A stretch of 64,000 nt of DNA from Chitinophaga niabensis. Its GTDB lineage: Bacteria; Bacteroidota; Bacteroidia; Chitinophagales; Chitinophagaceae. Below, one piece after another: positions 42,449 through 46,929 of this stretch. Position numbers and translations under genes: made by a program. The stretch spans positions 1 to 64,000 of the forward strand of contig JAFIGY010000018.1 of assembly GCA_017849435.1 (NCBI GenBank), read 5' to 3'. The notes below the pieces were generated by a model, which saw only the letters and a list, made by a program, of their open reading frames with translations, was not told where the DNA came from and made no database searches. Position 1 is the first letter of the stretch. Every line of letters starts with the position of its first letter.

Positions 42449-44236
42449 TTATTTTCTTGTCTTGAAGCAGGCTGATGCGCGTGTTTTATCCAGGCAAATG
42501 ATTGCATCATAACGATCCGGGAGAATGGCCGTTTCAAATTGCATACTGCCATCCATGGCTACTGCACCGAGATTCCGCAACCGTACCTTACCCAGTAGCC
42601 AGCGTGCCGCGGGATCCGTTAAGGTTTGCTTCCGGACATCGAGCACAAAATCCCTCAACCCCGCGTCCCTCCCATATCCCTCCAACGACCTCCGCGCCGG
42701 GGCTTCCAACACATTGTTGCTGGTTACACCTTTGCCCTTAACCACCGCCGTATAAGTCCCTTCTGCCGCGCCGAATCCAAACACCACTATCTCTTTCCCG
42801 TACATCCTGTCCAGATAGCTGCCCATGGAAAACAGCGTACGGTTCACATGCCCGTTATGCGCCCAGACCACCATTTTGGCACCGGGATTATGATCCATGA
42901 TCCATTTCACATTGTCCGCCATACTTCTGTCGCGTACCTGATTACTTGTGCGACCGGCGCACATCAGATCACCGAACTGCTCGATCACCGTGATATTCTG
43001 GAGCGTCCATTCCAGATCGGGTGGCTGCATCTTCCCCAACAATTCCGCTTTGTGTTTGCGGATATATTTCCTGATATCTTCCACCATGCTATACAACGGC
43101 TGCAGATCTTTTTTTGTGCTCCGTTCGTACCCCAGCTTCATCAACGATTTGCAGAAGCCGGTCAGCGTGTCCGCCAGCGGCTGCATGTCCGGAGCATATT
43201 GCTGTGCAAACCGCTGCAGGTGCTGCGCGGCTCCTTTGTAGTTCTGCATGTCGAAGCCGGTGAACTGCAGCATTTTATCAGGATGTTTGAGATTGTACTG
43301 CCGCATCCAGACCATCATATCCATCACCTCCTGTGTATTCCAGGTCCAGAAGTACATCGTATCCAGCATACGGTGGGGATCGCCGATGCCGCGCAATACG
43401 TAATCATTCACAGCGTAAGTCTCCGGCATATTCGCTTCGATGGAGAAGATCGTAAAACCCATTTCGGTAGCAAGGAATTCCAGCATGCGATGTTTCATCC
43501 GGAAGATCTCGCTGGTGCCGTGCGTACATTCTCCCAGCGATACGATCCGCGCATCGCCGATGATCTTTTTGAGAGGTTGCAAATCCTGTGTACCCTGGCC
43601 TGCATCTACGCTTGTGAGGGGAATGGCGTTTGCCTTCAGCCACTGTTGCGATGCGGCGGGCAGGGAATACGCCGAAGGATCCAGTTTAGGCACAAGAGCC
43701 GCATCATTTCCATCCACCGTGAGCATCAGCTTATCCATCCACATTTTCCCGGTTCCGCTCAATAATCCGCCCAGGTGGATCGCGTCTGCATTTTCATCCA
43801 GTTTAAGTTTGATGGTGTAAAGCTTCCAGTCTGTAGTACCTGTACTTCCTCTTCCATACATGTTATCGAACTGACCGCTGCCATCAATCCGCATCCACAA
43901 ACCAGCGTATCCCTGCTGTACGTTCTCCGTGCGGATATATCCCTGTAACACTACTTCTTTTCCTTTAAAATCAACCGGGATAACGTATTCGCTTACACCG
44001 ATGTCCATCACGGAATCCTTTTCAATAAGCAGGGAGTGTGCACCGGAGAAAAAGACGGTACTGTCCGTCCGCATCAGGTTACGCCCGGAAGCGAAGGTCT
44101 GGTAAAAGGCGCGCCATCCGCGGGATGGTTCTCCCGCATCTTTGGCCGGTTGTTCAAAATCGAAATTATGGGATTGCTGGGCGAAGGATATTTGGGCGCA
44201 GCATAACAGGAGGAATGCAGTGAAATGGCGATTCAT
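42449..44236 (-). CDS. Secreted erythromycin-esterase-family protein
   Basis: A 595-residue exported protein (signal peptide to about residue 19, AQISFAQ). Residues about 25-175 are a beta-sandwich of carbohydrate-binding type; 190-590 is the Ere-type hydrolase domain with IVSLGECTHGTSEIFRMKHR, FSIEANMPE, and MVVWAHNGHVNR carrying the conserved Glu and His residues. The family includes macrolide esterases, but most secreted members in Bacteroidota have unknown substrates and the extra N-terminal domain is not part of EreA/EreB. Resistance should not be assumed. It faces the lipoprotein gene tail-to-tail. Confidence 0.85.
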   Translation of the reverse strand: MNRHFTAFLLLCCAQISFAQQSHNFDFEQPAKDAGEPSRGWRAFYQTFASGRNLMRTDSTVFFSGAHSLLIEKDSVMDIGVSEYVIPVDFKGKEVVLQGYIRTENVQQGYAGLWMRIDGSGQFDNMYGRGSTGTTDWKLYTIKLKLDENADAIHLGGLLSGTGKMWMDKLMLTVDGNDAALVPKLDPSAYSLPAASQQWLKANAIPLTSVDAGQGTQDLQPLKKIIGDARIVSLGECTHGTSEIFRMKHRMLEFLATEMGFTIFSIEANMPETYAVNDYVLRGIGDPHRMLDTMYFWTWNTQEVMDMMVWMRQYNLKHPDKMLQFTGFDMQNYKGAAQHLQRFAQQYAPDMQPLADTLTGFCKSLMKLGYERSTKKDLQPLYSMVEDIRKYIRKHKAELLGKMQPPDLEWTLQNITVIEQFGDLMCAGRTSNQVRDRSMADNVKWIMDHNPGAKMVVWAHNGHVNRTLFSMGSYLDRMYGKEIVVFGFGAAEGTYTAVVKGKGVTSNNVLEAPARRSLEGYGRDAGLRDFVLDVRKQTLTDPAARWLLGKVRLRNLGAVAMDGSMQFETAILPDRYDAIICLDKTRASACFKTRK

Positions 44237-44416: not shown

Positions 44417-45037
44417 TTATATCTGCTTTAAAGCATGCTCATAATTGGCTGCTGCGGCATTCCAGTCGAGCACTTCCCAGAAAGACTTGATATAATCCGC
44501 CCGTTTGTTCTGGTATTTAAGGTAATAAGCATGTTCCCATACATCCAGTCCCAGCACGGGAATCCCGCGATCCGTCAGGTTCACGTCCATCAACGGGTTA
44601 TCCTGGTTGGGTGTGGAAGCGATCTCGATCTGCCCGTTATATTTCACATACAACCAGCTCCACCCGGACCCGAAGCGGGCCAGCGACAGGTTGTAGAATT
44701 GTTCCCTGAATTGCTCCAGGCTGTCCCATTTTGCGAGGATTGCTGCTTCCAGTTTACCGGAGGGTTTCTTTGCGGGAGATGCGGAGAGCAGTTTCCAGAA
44801 AAGGGAATGGTTATAGTGGCCACCGCCGTTGTTGCGCACTGCAGCGCTGTATTTGCTGACGTTCTGCAGAATCTCTTCCAGGGTTTTGTTCTCCGCATCC
44901 GTTCCCGCGATGCTTTTGTTCAGATTATCCACATACGCCTGATGGTGACGGGTATGGTGTATTTCCATGGTAGCTTTATCGATATGCGGTTCCAGTGCAT
45001 CGTAGGCATATGGCAATGCCGGCAGTTGATGTATCAT
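44417..45037 (-). CDS. Superoxide dismutase (Fe/Mn)
   Basis: Converts superoxide to peroxide and oxygen. The 206-residue protein has all four metal ligands: H27 (MEIHHTRHHQAYV), H77 (GGGHYNHSLFW), D165 and H169 (LDVWEHAYYLKY). No signal peptide, so cytoplasmic. Fe or Mn preference cannot be decided safely from sequence. It is transcribed from a very good Bacteroidota promoter that overlaps a palindrome at the start of the divergent SufR-like regulator. Confidence 0.96.
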   Translation of the reverse strand: MIHQLPALPYAYDALEPHIDKATMEIHHTRHHQAYVDNLNKSIAGTDAENKTLEEILQNVSKYSAAVRNNGGGHYNHSLFWKLLSASPAKKPSGKLEAAILAKWDSLEQFREQFYNLSLARFGSGWSWLYVKYNGQIEIASTPNQDNPLMDVNLTDRGIPVLGLDVWEHAYYLKYQNKRADYIKSFWEVLDWNAAAANYEHALKQI

Positions 45038-45062
45038 AACTTTCGTTTTTTATTTTACTGTA

Positions 45063-45093
45063 CAAATATAGTAACTTTGATTATTAAACCAAA
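45063..45093 (-). promoter_or_regulatory. Promoter of superoxide dismutase
   Basis: On the minus strand TTTG (45090-45093) is followed after exactly 19 bases by TATATTTG (45063-45070), a full match to the Bacteroidota -33/-7 arrangement. The -33 box is overlapped by the AATAAACA palindrome at 45092-45110. Confidence 0.8.
45072..45079 (+). promoter_or_regulatory. -7 box of the SufR-like regulator gene
   Basis: TAACTTTG, full match to TAnnTTTG, 32 bases before the ATG at 45111. It overlaps the divergent sod promoter, so the two transcripts compete for the same 30 bases. Confidence 0.6.
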
Positions 45094-45110
45094 TAAACAC
45101 TTTGTTTATT
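45092..45110. promoter_or_regulatory. Palindromic operator at the sod/SufR-like intergenic region
   Basis: AATAAACA (45092-45099) and TGTTTATT (45103-45110) are perfect inverted arms around CTT. The site covers the first bases of the sod -33 box and ends exactly one base before the regulator's ATG, so binding there could block both sod transcription and the regulator's own expression. Binding by the neighbouring regulator is inferred. Confidence 0.6.
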
Positions 45111-45743
45111 ATGAATAATCCTCTTCCTGAGAACGAGCGGGCAGTATGGGTACTGAAGACGATCGGGCCGCAGCCCTTGAGCGTATTGGCGGAGAAGATG
45201 AACGTGACCGTGGAGGGCGCCCGGTTCCAGCTGCTCAAACTGGCTACAGACGGACTTGTAGAGGCAACCACTGTTTCCAAAGGTCGCGGACGTCCGCAGC
45301 AGATATGGTCTTTAACCGCCCGCGGGCATGCCCGTTTCCCGGATACGCATGCCGATCTTACGGTGAAGCTGATCCGGAAGATGCGGGAAACGCTGGGAGA
45401 GGCGGCTGTGCAAGCGGTGATAGCGGCTAACGGGAAAGACAGTACGGAAAGATATCTGAAGGAACTGGAGGGGGTTAAGGGATTGGAGAGCCGTGTAAAA
45501 AAACTGGCGGAGATACGCAGCCGCGAAGGTTATATGGCGGAGTATGAAAAAGAGGCGGGTGGCTTTCTGCTGGTGGAGAACCACTGCCCTATTTGTGCAG
45601 CGGCAACAGCTTGCCAGGGGTTCTGCCAGTCGGAGTTATCTGCATTCAGGAAGGTATTGAAGGCGGATGTGGAAAGGGTTAGTCATATTTTGGACGGCGC
45701 GAGGCACTGTGCTTATAAAATAAAGCTGCACGATCAAATATAG
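45111..45743 (+). CDS. SufR-like iron-sulfur winged-helix regulator
   Basis: A 210-residue transcription factor. Residues about 8-75 form a winged helix (LSVLAEKMNVTVEGARFQLLKLATDGLV, wing KGRGRPQQIWSLTARG). The C-terminal part has the SufR-type cysteine set: C159 in ENHCPI, C172 in GFCQSEL, and C200 in GARHCAYKI, with additional C162 and C168, and the text DVERVSHILDGARHC. SufR proteins bind an iron-sulfur cluster and repress Fe-S assembly genes. Here the neighbour is superoxide dismutase, which suggests redox control of sod. Start at ATG 45111 is preferred over a TTG at 45102. The cfa gene follows after 31 bases. Confidence 0.88.
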   Translation: MNNPLPENERAVWVLKTIGPQPLSVLAEKMNVTVEGARFQLLKLATDGLVEATTVSKGRGRPQQIWSLTARGHARFPDTHADLTVKLIRKMRETLGEAAVQAVIAANGKDSTERYLKELEGVKGLESRVKKLAEIRSREGYMAEYEKEAGGFLLVENHCPICAAATACQGFCQSELSAFRKVLKADVERVSHILDGARHCAYKIKLHDQI

Positions 45744-45774
45744 CGTACCTTTATCCTGAACTTCTTTACATCCC

Positions 45775-46929
45775 ATGAAGAAGGAAAAGGCCCAAATGAT
45801 CATCAGCCGGCTTTTGGCTTCAGCCGGAATTACCGTGAACGGGAATAATCCCTGGGACATCCGGGTTCACCGGGAGGATTTTTATAGCAGGGTGCTGAAA
45901 TACGGCTCCCTCGGCCTCGGGGAATCCTACATGGAACATTGGTGGGACTGTCCCCGGATGGATGAATTCTTTTACCGTGTGCTCACTCATCACCTCAACG
46001 ATTATATCAAAAAAGACTGGCGCCTGAAAGCAGACATCCTCCTCTCCCGGCTCCTCAACTCCCAGCATACAGATCGCGCGCACCTCAATGCTTCCCGACA
46101 TTACGACATCGGGAATGATCTTTTCAAAACTATGCTGGACAAACGTTTAACATACACCTGTGCATTCTGGGACCATGCGCATACATTGGATGAAGCACAG
46201 GAACACAAGCTCGATCTCACCTGTCGGAAACTTCAGCTCGAAGCAGGGATGCATGTACTGGACATCGGCTGCGGATGGGGCAGCTTCGCGAAGTTCGCAG
46301 CGGAGCGATATGATGTGAAAGTAACCGGCATCACCTTATCCAAAGAGCAGGCCACACTGGCTGCGCAGCTTTGCAGGGGATTACCGGTGGATATCCGGCT
46401 CACCGATTACCGTGAGCTGGATGGGAAGTTTGATGCCATTGTATCTCTGGGAATGTTTGAGCATGTAGGGCCGAAGAATTACCGCGCTTATATGCGTATG
46501 GCACACCGTTCTTTAAAGGACGGCGGATTGTTTCTGCTGCACACCATCGGCGGTAACAGTTCTTCAACGATGGGCGACAAATGGCTGCACAGATACATCT
46601 TTCCGAATGCCGTCATTCCTTCCATCCGGCAGATCGGCCAGGCTATTGAAAAATTATTTGTAATGGAACACTGGGAGAACTTCAGTGTGAACTATGATAA
46701 AACCCTGATGGCATGGTATGCCAACATCCTGCAATACCGGGATCAGCTTGCTGTCCGGTATGATGATACCTTCTTCCGGATGTGGGAATACTACCTGCTC
46801 TCCTGCGCAGGTTCCTTTCGCGCAAGGCAAAGTCAGCTATGGCAGATCGTACTGTCCCGGGAGGGTGTACGGGGCGGTTATCATTTCGACGCTCCGCTAT
46901 ATTTTGACGTTTTGAAAAAAATGATTTAG
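45775..46929 (+). CDS. cfa: Cyclopropane-fatty-acyl-phospholipid synthase
   Basis: Transfers a methylene group from S-adenosylmethionine onto double bonds of membrane phospholipids, a stress adaptation. The 384-residue protein shows the family order: an N-terminal lipid-binding region (GLGESYMEHWWDCP), HYDIGNDLFKTMLDKRLTYTCAFW, the SAM motif VLDIGCGWGSFA, and SLGMFEHVGPKNY with the conserved active-site Glu-His. Short spacing behind the SufR-like regulator suggests one transcript. Confidence 0.95.
   Translation: MKKEKAQMIISRLLASAGITVNGNNPWDIRVHREDFYSRVLKYGSLGLGESYMEHWWDCPRMDEFFYRVLTHHLNDYIKKDWRLKADILLSRLLNSQHTDRAHLNASRHYDIGNDLFKTMLDKRLTYTCAFWDHAHTLDEAQEHKLDLTCRKLQLEAGMHVLDIGCGWGSFAKFAAERYDVKVTGITLSKEQATLAAQLCRGLPVDIRLTDYRELDGKFDAIVSLGMFEHVGPKNYRAYMRMAHRSLKDGGLFLLHTIGGNSSSTMGDKWLHRYIFPNAVIPSIRQIGQAIEKLFVMEHWENFSVNYDKTLMAWYANILQYRDQLAVRYDDTFFRMWEYYLLSCAGSFRARQSQLWQIVLSREGVRGGYHFDAPLYFDVLKKMI

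Follow-up and report, generated by a model that had tools for sequence, protein, structure and literature searches.

In a stretch of 64,000 nucleotides from Chitinophaga niabensis (assembly GCA_017849435.1, contig JAFIGY010000018.1; this whole stretch is called the window below), the superoxide dismutase (SOD) gene sod lies divergently and back to back with the gene of a SufR-like regulator, which is followed on its own strand by cfa, encoding a cyclopropane fatty acid synthase. The regulator, a 28-bp operator and sod form a genuine conserved unit: gene layout, regulator cysteines, operator and promoters are conserved, and the arrangement recurs across the phylum Bacteroidota. We consider it reasonably likely that the regulator, a paralogue of SufR, is an autorepressor of a small antioxidant and efflux gene set that would be released upon damage of an iron-sulfur (Fe-S) cluster and would be functionally SoxR-like, with the cluster, the binding, the repression and the signal presumed from sequence. 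The genome around the window (5.0 Mb) is 99.96% complete. Open reading frames (ORFs) and Pfam matches agree with the layout of sod, regulator and cfa claimed by an earlier reading of the same DNA (the original prediction), and the features are as follows:

45083..45110, no strand assigned: conserved 28-bp operator ATTAAACCAAATAA/ACACTTTGTTTATT, predicted binding site of the regulator (dyad conservation)
44417..45037, minus strand: sod, Fe/Mn-family superoxide dismutase, 206 amino acids (Pfam Sod_Fe_N and Sod_Fe_C)
45111..45743, plus strand: SufR-like winged-helix regulator, 210 amino acids (NCBIfam SufR_cyano match, cysteines, model)
45063..45093, minus strand: sod promoter TTTG-N19-TATATTTG (exact; −33 box inside the operator)
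45072..45079, plus strand: probable regulator −7 box TAACTTTG (TAnnTTTG at this place in 27/34 relatives)
45092..45110, no strand assigned: 8-3-8 palindrome AATAAACA-CTT-TGTTTATT (exact; the regulator ATG starts at 45111)
45775..46929, plus strand: cfa, cyclopropane fatty acid synthase, 384 amino acids (Pfam CMAS)

Conservation of the regulator, the operator and sod

For the comparison with relatives, 72 regulator loci were fetched, 39 of them being non-redundant once similar upstream regions had been taken out (genes in relatives were called from ORFs and tblastn). Among the 29 named loci with the regulator, 13 are from Chitinophaga and 4 from Niabella. A SOD gene on the opposite strand with the operator in between was found at 21 of the 72 loci (16 of the 39 non-redundant ones). 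Such sod-linked loci occur in the genus, in Salegentibacter, Sinomicrobium, Leeuwenhoekiella, a Sphingobacteriaceae bacterium and, within the phylum sample, family f43; the linkage of sod and regulator, on which the original prediction depended, is therefore present in several Bacteroidota families. The phylum sample (395 genomes) contains five other genomes with the subfamily (≥ 53% identity), and the operator lies between sod and the regulator in 5/5. One of these five, G339, carries a second subfamily copy (L184) that has neither operator nor sod within the fetched 6.6 kb.

The operator (≤ 5 mismatches) is found 40–66 bp from the sod ATG at 21/21 sod-linked loci and touches the regulator ATG at 12 of them, the operator–regulator distance at the other nine being 62 (three near-identical loci), 113, 113, 121, 144, 145, and 1870 bp. 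Judged by these ranges (40–66 bp to sod, 0–1870 bp to the regulator), the operator keeps to sod no less closely than to the regulator. L158, L159, and L175 have two operators each: a good one near sod, at a distance of 62 bp to the regulator ATG, and a degenerate one that immediately precedes this ATG.

Upstream of the regulator ATG, the block AATAAACCAAATAA-(A/T)(T/C)-ACTTTGTTTATT is conserved across the phylum, and dyad symmetry across 34 non-redundant upstream regions peaked at the centre −15|−14, with 69% complementary positions (52% for the next best centre). The 8-3-8 palindrome is centred 4–5 bases nearer to the ATG than this 28-bp dyad; it is the best local palindrome in the window (0.03 chance matches expected there at ≤ 2 mismatches) and exists as a single exact copy in the genome, where matches with ≤ 3 mismatches showed no excess (42 vs. 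49 for the reversed pattern). The 28-bp pattern (≤ 3 mismatches), by comparison, was detected at 43 places in 37/79 genus genomes (reversed control: 0/79), 36 of these places adjoining a full regulator gene. The phylum sample yielded the operator in 10/395 genomes vs. 3 control matches; apart from the own genome, five of these carry a subfamily regulator and four have none in the fetched flanks, which is about the control rate. A regulon inside the own genome was also considered and discarded, as the single operator site at ≤ 3 mismatches leaves no second target to be predicted.

The pattern TTTG-N18-21-TAnnTTTG has four matches in the window vs. 0.76 expected (at least four in 2/100 shuffles). 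Between sod and the regulator, a pair of −7 boxes (CAAAnnTA and TAnnTTTG) is arranged back to back, the minus-strand box being present in 26/34 relatives, the plus-strand box in 27/34 and both in 23/34 (mononucleotide shuffles: 1.2% and 1.9%). In 21/34 relatives, the minus-strand −7 box is accompanied by CAAA at N18-21. These counts are not independent, since the loci share descent. The exact sod promoter proposed originally, with its −33 box overlapped by the palindrome, was recovered, and the overlap with the promoter also holds for the 28-bp operator.

The regulator and its suf-linked paralogue

The regulator matches the NCBIfam model SufR_cyano (TIGR02702) with 102 bits (E 3.5e−29), and its Pfam scan gave no family over cut-off, only a weak PadR match. 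Its cysteines are at positions 159, 162, 168, 172, and 200. Four of them (C159, C168, C172, and C200) are invariant in 58/58 sod-type (≥ 53% identity), 18/18 suf-type (42–49%) and 4/4 intermediate distinct sequences, and C162 is kept in 49/58 sod-type sequences; in 17 distant homologues, C159, C172, and C200 are retained and C168 is not. The SufR cysteine set named in the original prediction (C159, C172, C200) is thus present and invariant in 58/58 sod-type relatives with the ligand spacing Cys-x12-Cys-x27-Cys, which is also the spacing of C203, C216, and C244, the cysteines that Mycobacterium tuberculosis Rv1460/SufR needs to function (PMC6034842). We regard the regulator as probably an Fe-S switch protein. 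Its predicted model is a winged helix (pLDDT 80.6, pTM 0.59), for which Foldseek returned three matches at E ≤ 0.001, the 50 best rows being mostly general winged-helix proteins. A phmmer search against the PDB gave a weak PadR match alone (E 0.71), and neither the Foldseek matches listed nor the phmmer matches in the PDB included a solved relative of the C-terminal part that bears the cysteines.

A second copy in the own genome, 47% identical to the regulator, faces sufB-sufC-sufD-sufS (Pfam: SUFBD_core, ABC_tran, SUFBD_core, Aminotran_5). As the original prediction had it, the regulator itself stands back to back with sod and not with suf genes, the suf-facing copy being a separate paralogue. 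Because the same genome holds this suf-linked copy, we rejected the regulator as the SufR orthologue; by sequence it is a paralogue of SufR that has lost its tie to suf genes. All 36 genus genomes compared carry the suf-type copy (44–51% identity to the regulator), and 17 of the 36, the own genome included, additionally carry a sod-type copy (≥ 56% identity). In the genus, sufB is divergent from the suf-type copy at 14/14 loci (the own locus and those of 13 genomes without a sod-type copy). Outside the genus, "suf-type" is an identity label only (42–48%), because sufB was found at one of six loci (L075; loci of 3.6 kb).

In a tree of 97 rows, built with a quick method, the 60 sod-type rows form one group and all suf-type rows fall outside it, with a group support of 93 (Shimodaira–Hasegawa-like approximate likelihood ratio test, SH-aLRT), i.e., below the threshold of 95 at which branches were starred. 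Placing the SOD label on the tree takes nine changes, at least four of which are forced by starred branches; sod linkage was accordingly gained, lost or moved repeatedly.

The paralogue offers a second comparison for the operator. CAAG-N6-CTTG is found in perfect form upstream of the own paralogue, at the place corresponding to the operator, and at the corresponding place at 15/20 suf-type loci (14/14 in the genus), a sixteenth match lying elsewhere. By its sequence, this site resembles the cyanobacterial SufR operator CAAC-N6-GTTG (PMC8593673). The dyad centre of the 28-bp operator is that of the paralogue's CAAG-N6-CTTG, its core reading CAAA-N6-CTTT with long outer arms. At 7/14 genus suf-type loci (L019–L021, L023, L024, L028, L030), an FMN reductase gene lies before sufB in the sufR-suf divergon, and the paralogue may have come upon its new partners in this way.

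Neighbouring genes as predicted targets

The divergent partners found elsewhere are an HlyD + ACR_tran RND pump, two kinds of FMN reductase (FMN_red), DUF2480, an arylamine N-acetyltransferase-like protein and, once, an aminotransferase-like protein (identified by Pfam on examples and by tblastn for the remainder, with not every neighbour gene identified). At the 39 non-redundant loci, the first identified divergent gene is SOD in 15 cases, an RND adaptor in 8, FMN_red in 8, DUF2480 in 2, the N-acetyltransferase in 1, the aminotransferase-like gene in 1 and unclear in 4; one of the unclear loci (L185) has the operator and sod 1.9 kb away, and at L042 the FMN_red gene counted as first comes after a 99-aa ORF. 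Mixed neighbourhoods comprise the run SOD-DUF2480-FMN_red (L043, Pfam-checked), SOD together with an RND adaptor (L041, Pfam-checked; L158, L159, L173, and L175, tblastn) and SOD together with FMN_red (L139, L164, L181, L183, and L186, tblastn). These neighbours of regulator and operator are predicted, from their position, to be controlled targets in the relatives. In the own genome, sod is the sole neighbour of regulator or operator from the antioxidant, reductase or efflux classes.

Seven operator sites in the genus lack a full regulator gene, and they lie in a DUF1304/DUF2480 gap, in an MFS/fatty acid desaturase gap (two genomes), on the side of an MFS gene, and by FMN_red and SDR genes. 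At L150 and L152 (position 4001), the operator stands between the MFS and desaturase genes with no regulator in the fetched 8 kb; both genomes have a sod-linked regulator elsewhere (L149, L151). The sites by FMN reductase and SDR genes are L163, L174, and L176 (position 4001), and L174 retains a stretch like the last ~55 codons of the regulator, as if the regulator gene had disappeared once the operator was in place. DUF2480, a family of unknown function, recurs beside the regulator or operator (L035, L039, L043, L046, L140, L164, L183), with an FMN reductase gene further along at 6/7 of these loci. At 11 loci with a divergent FMN reductase gene (L048, L050, L051, L053, L060, L142, L166, L167, L171, L172, L179; some of them duplicates of one place), an aconitase gene lies 59–72 bp 3′ of the regulator, which may put a superoxide-sensitive enzyme under the same switch.

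The cfa linkage is the weakest part of our interpretation. The gap between regulator and cfa is 31 bases (45744–45774), which suggests that cfa is possibly read through from the regulator. The genome has no second close copy of cfa, its one further match being partial (E 2.3e−5). In the fetched flanks (mostly 4–5 kb), cfa was absent from all 71 other regulator loci (0/38 non-redundant), among which there is no close relative of the species, the closest regulator found in another genome being 67% identical. The spacing claimed by the original prediction thus stands for this genome, whereas cfa as a general member of a conserved unit was rejected on the 0/71. As a loose parallel to cfa and its link to membrane lipids, two other species have the operator in front of a fatty acid desaturase gene.

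The window sod is one of three Fe/Mn SOD genes of the genome. The other two (L192 and L193, or G000:C2 and G000:C7) are 60% and 57% identical to it, with no operator at ≤ 5 mismatches in the fetched 8.3 kb. All three proteins carry residues (GGGH and NQD in the window sod) which we take to be those usual for the Mn type. On the 3′ side of sod and on the same strand, a 595-aa erythromycin-esterase-like protein is encoded at 42449–44236; co-transcription of the two genes is uncertain, given the 180-base gap.

Proposed mechanism, alternatives and known systems

In the mechanism that we favour, the regulator would form a dimer with a SufR-type [4Fe-4S] cluster on C159, C172, and C200, C168 being the likely fourth ligand, and the cluster-bearing dimer would bind the 28-bp dyad at 45083–45110. 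Since the operator holds the sod −33 box and covers the start region of the regulator transcript, one bound dimer could block both promoters, so that both genes would be held down. Superoxide, redox-cycling compounds or iron shortage would damage or empty the cluster and the dimer would leave; sod and the regulator, here perhaps with cfa by read-through, would then be expressed until the clusters are rebuilt.

Several points weigh against this proposal. The TIGR02702 score lies under the family cut-off of 178.8 bits, as does that of the suf-linked paralogue (97.6 bits). The cyanobacterial SufR motif is C-x12-C-x13-C-x14-C (PMC8593673), and its third cysteine is absent from the regulator; the invariant C168 may be a stand-in for it. 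In the window, the 28-bp dyad matches at 9/14 positions vs. 8/8 arm positions for the palindrome, and a second, weaker site directly precedes the regulator ATG at 4/21 sod-linked loci, all among the nine where the main operator lies at a distance. The operator sites share descent, hence part of their conservation needs no function, and with two other Fe/Mn SODs in the genome the window sod need not be the main superoxide defence. Finally, the cluster, the dimer, the DNA binding, the repression, the signal and the co-transcription of cfa are deduced from sequence comparison and the gene layout.

The most serious alternative, which we nevertheless deem unlikely, is that the regulator senses quinones or antibiotics directly or via oxidation of its cysteines rather than through an Fe-S cluster, sod belonging, together with efflux pumps and FMN reductases, to a set of genes that responds to drugs. 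The partners have such a drug-handling flavour (RND pump, FMN_red and N-acetyltransferase, with stand-alone operators by MFS and SDR genes), and five cysteines could serve as thiol switches; yet the cysteines, spaced as in SufR, are invariant and common to the suf-linked paralogues, and the SufR homologues that have been studied in other bacteria are cluster-bearing (PMC6034842, PMC8593673). It is less probable still that the regulator reports iron or Fe-S status, with cluster shortage leading to release and to a switch towards a Mn-type SOD, and with superoxide not being the primary signal. The presumed Mn-type residues of all three SODs would fit such a switch. So would the derepression of SufR under iron limitation (PMC13421787), but a role in iron metabolism is not obvious for the partners at other loci (RND and MFS pumps, FMN reductases), and no iron-uptake gene was seen among the neighbours that were identified.

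The remaining alternative concerns the binding site: the exact palindrome at 45092–45110 could be the operator, with the wider conservation stemming from the overlapping promoter and the start-codon context. Exactness, rarity and rank as the best local palindrome in the window speak for it, and conservation beside an ATG could partly be translational. However, it is perfect in only 11/34 relatives and off the dyad centre, conservation extends beyond it to the outer arm AATAAAC (−28 to −22), and stand-alone sites without a regulator ATG are the better, near-perfect 28-bp dyads, e.g., AATAAACCAAATATTCATTTGGTTTATT at L176 (no search for the regulator protein was made in the genomes of L163 and L176). 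We therefore rejected the palindrome as the conserved operator and consider this alternative very improbable; what stands of the original claim is an exact palindrome that ends at 45110, one base before the regulator ATG, and the 28-bp dyad takes its place as operator.

Beyond the sod locus, the novelty is probably wider and, as far as the sequences indicate, consists of a SufR-derived portable divergon in Bacteroidota with SoxR-like properties. The original prediction knew of no described example in this phylum, and no SufR-type sod regulator, in Bacteroidota or elsewhere, is described among the PubMed Central (PMC) matches listed (titles and abstract openings; subscription papers and preprints lie outside); nor do these matches describe the sensing of superoxide or redox drugs by a SufR-type protein in Bacteroidota without SoxR. 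The proposal is directly testable, as it comes with a defined regulator, a 28-bp site and a list of predicted targets, and the suf-linked paralogue of the same genome is a natural control for a regulator of Fe-S biogenesis turned stress regulator. If it is true, DUF2480 becomes a candidate redox-stress protein.

Among known systems, Fe-S regulators of the IscR/RsrR type can control antioxidant genes, a role like that predicted here, and belong to the Rrf2 family, for which the Pfam/NCBIfam scan of the regulator gave no match. With SufR (Synechocystis sll0088, Rv1460, Streptomyces avermitilis), the regulator has in common the family-level similarity to TIGR02702, Cys-x12-Cys-x27-Cys, the winged helix (in the model) and a divergent promoter, its operator being centred as in the CAAG-N6-CTTG of the suf-linked paralogue. 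It differs in its sub-cut-off score, in its linkage to sod instead of suf, in the separate suf-linked paralogue present in the genome and in its operator, which spans 28 bp with outer AATAAAC/GTTTATT arms.

The predicted target classes, in turn, overlap those of SoxR/SoxRS, which include sodA and acrAB-tolC in Escherichia coli (PMC13367049), flavoprotein and quinone reductases, an epimerase and a transporter in Streptomyces (PMC4146615) and the MFS pump gene mfsA in Stenotrophomonas (PMC4411124). A SoxR match (TIGR01950) over cut-off was found in 0/79 genus genomes vs. 1/14 control genomes, weaker matches in 33/79 and none in the own genome. We tentatively suggest, with less confidence than we place in the autorepressor itself, that Bacteroidota without SoxR may have turned a duplicated suf-linked sufR divergon into a functional substitute, in which a portable regulator and its 28-bp operator act, depending on the species, on sod, FMN/quinone reductases, DUF2480, RND/MFS pumps and, here, lipid cyclopropanation. 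SoxR is an unrelated [2Fe-2S] activator of the MerR family; unlike it, the substitute, a predicted SufR-type repressor, would act by loss of repression on Fe-S cluster damage.

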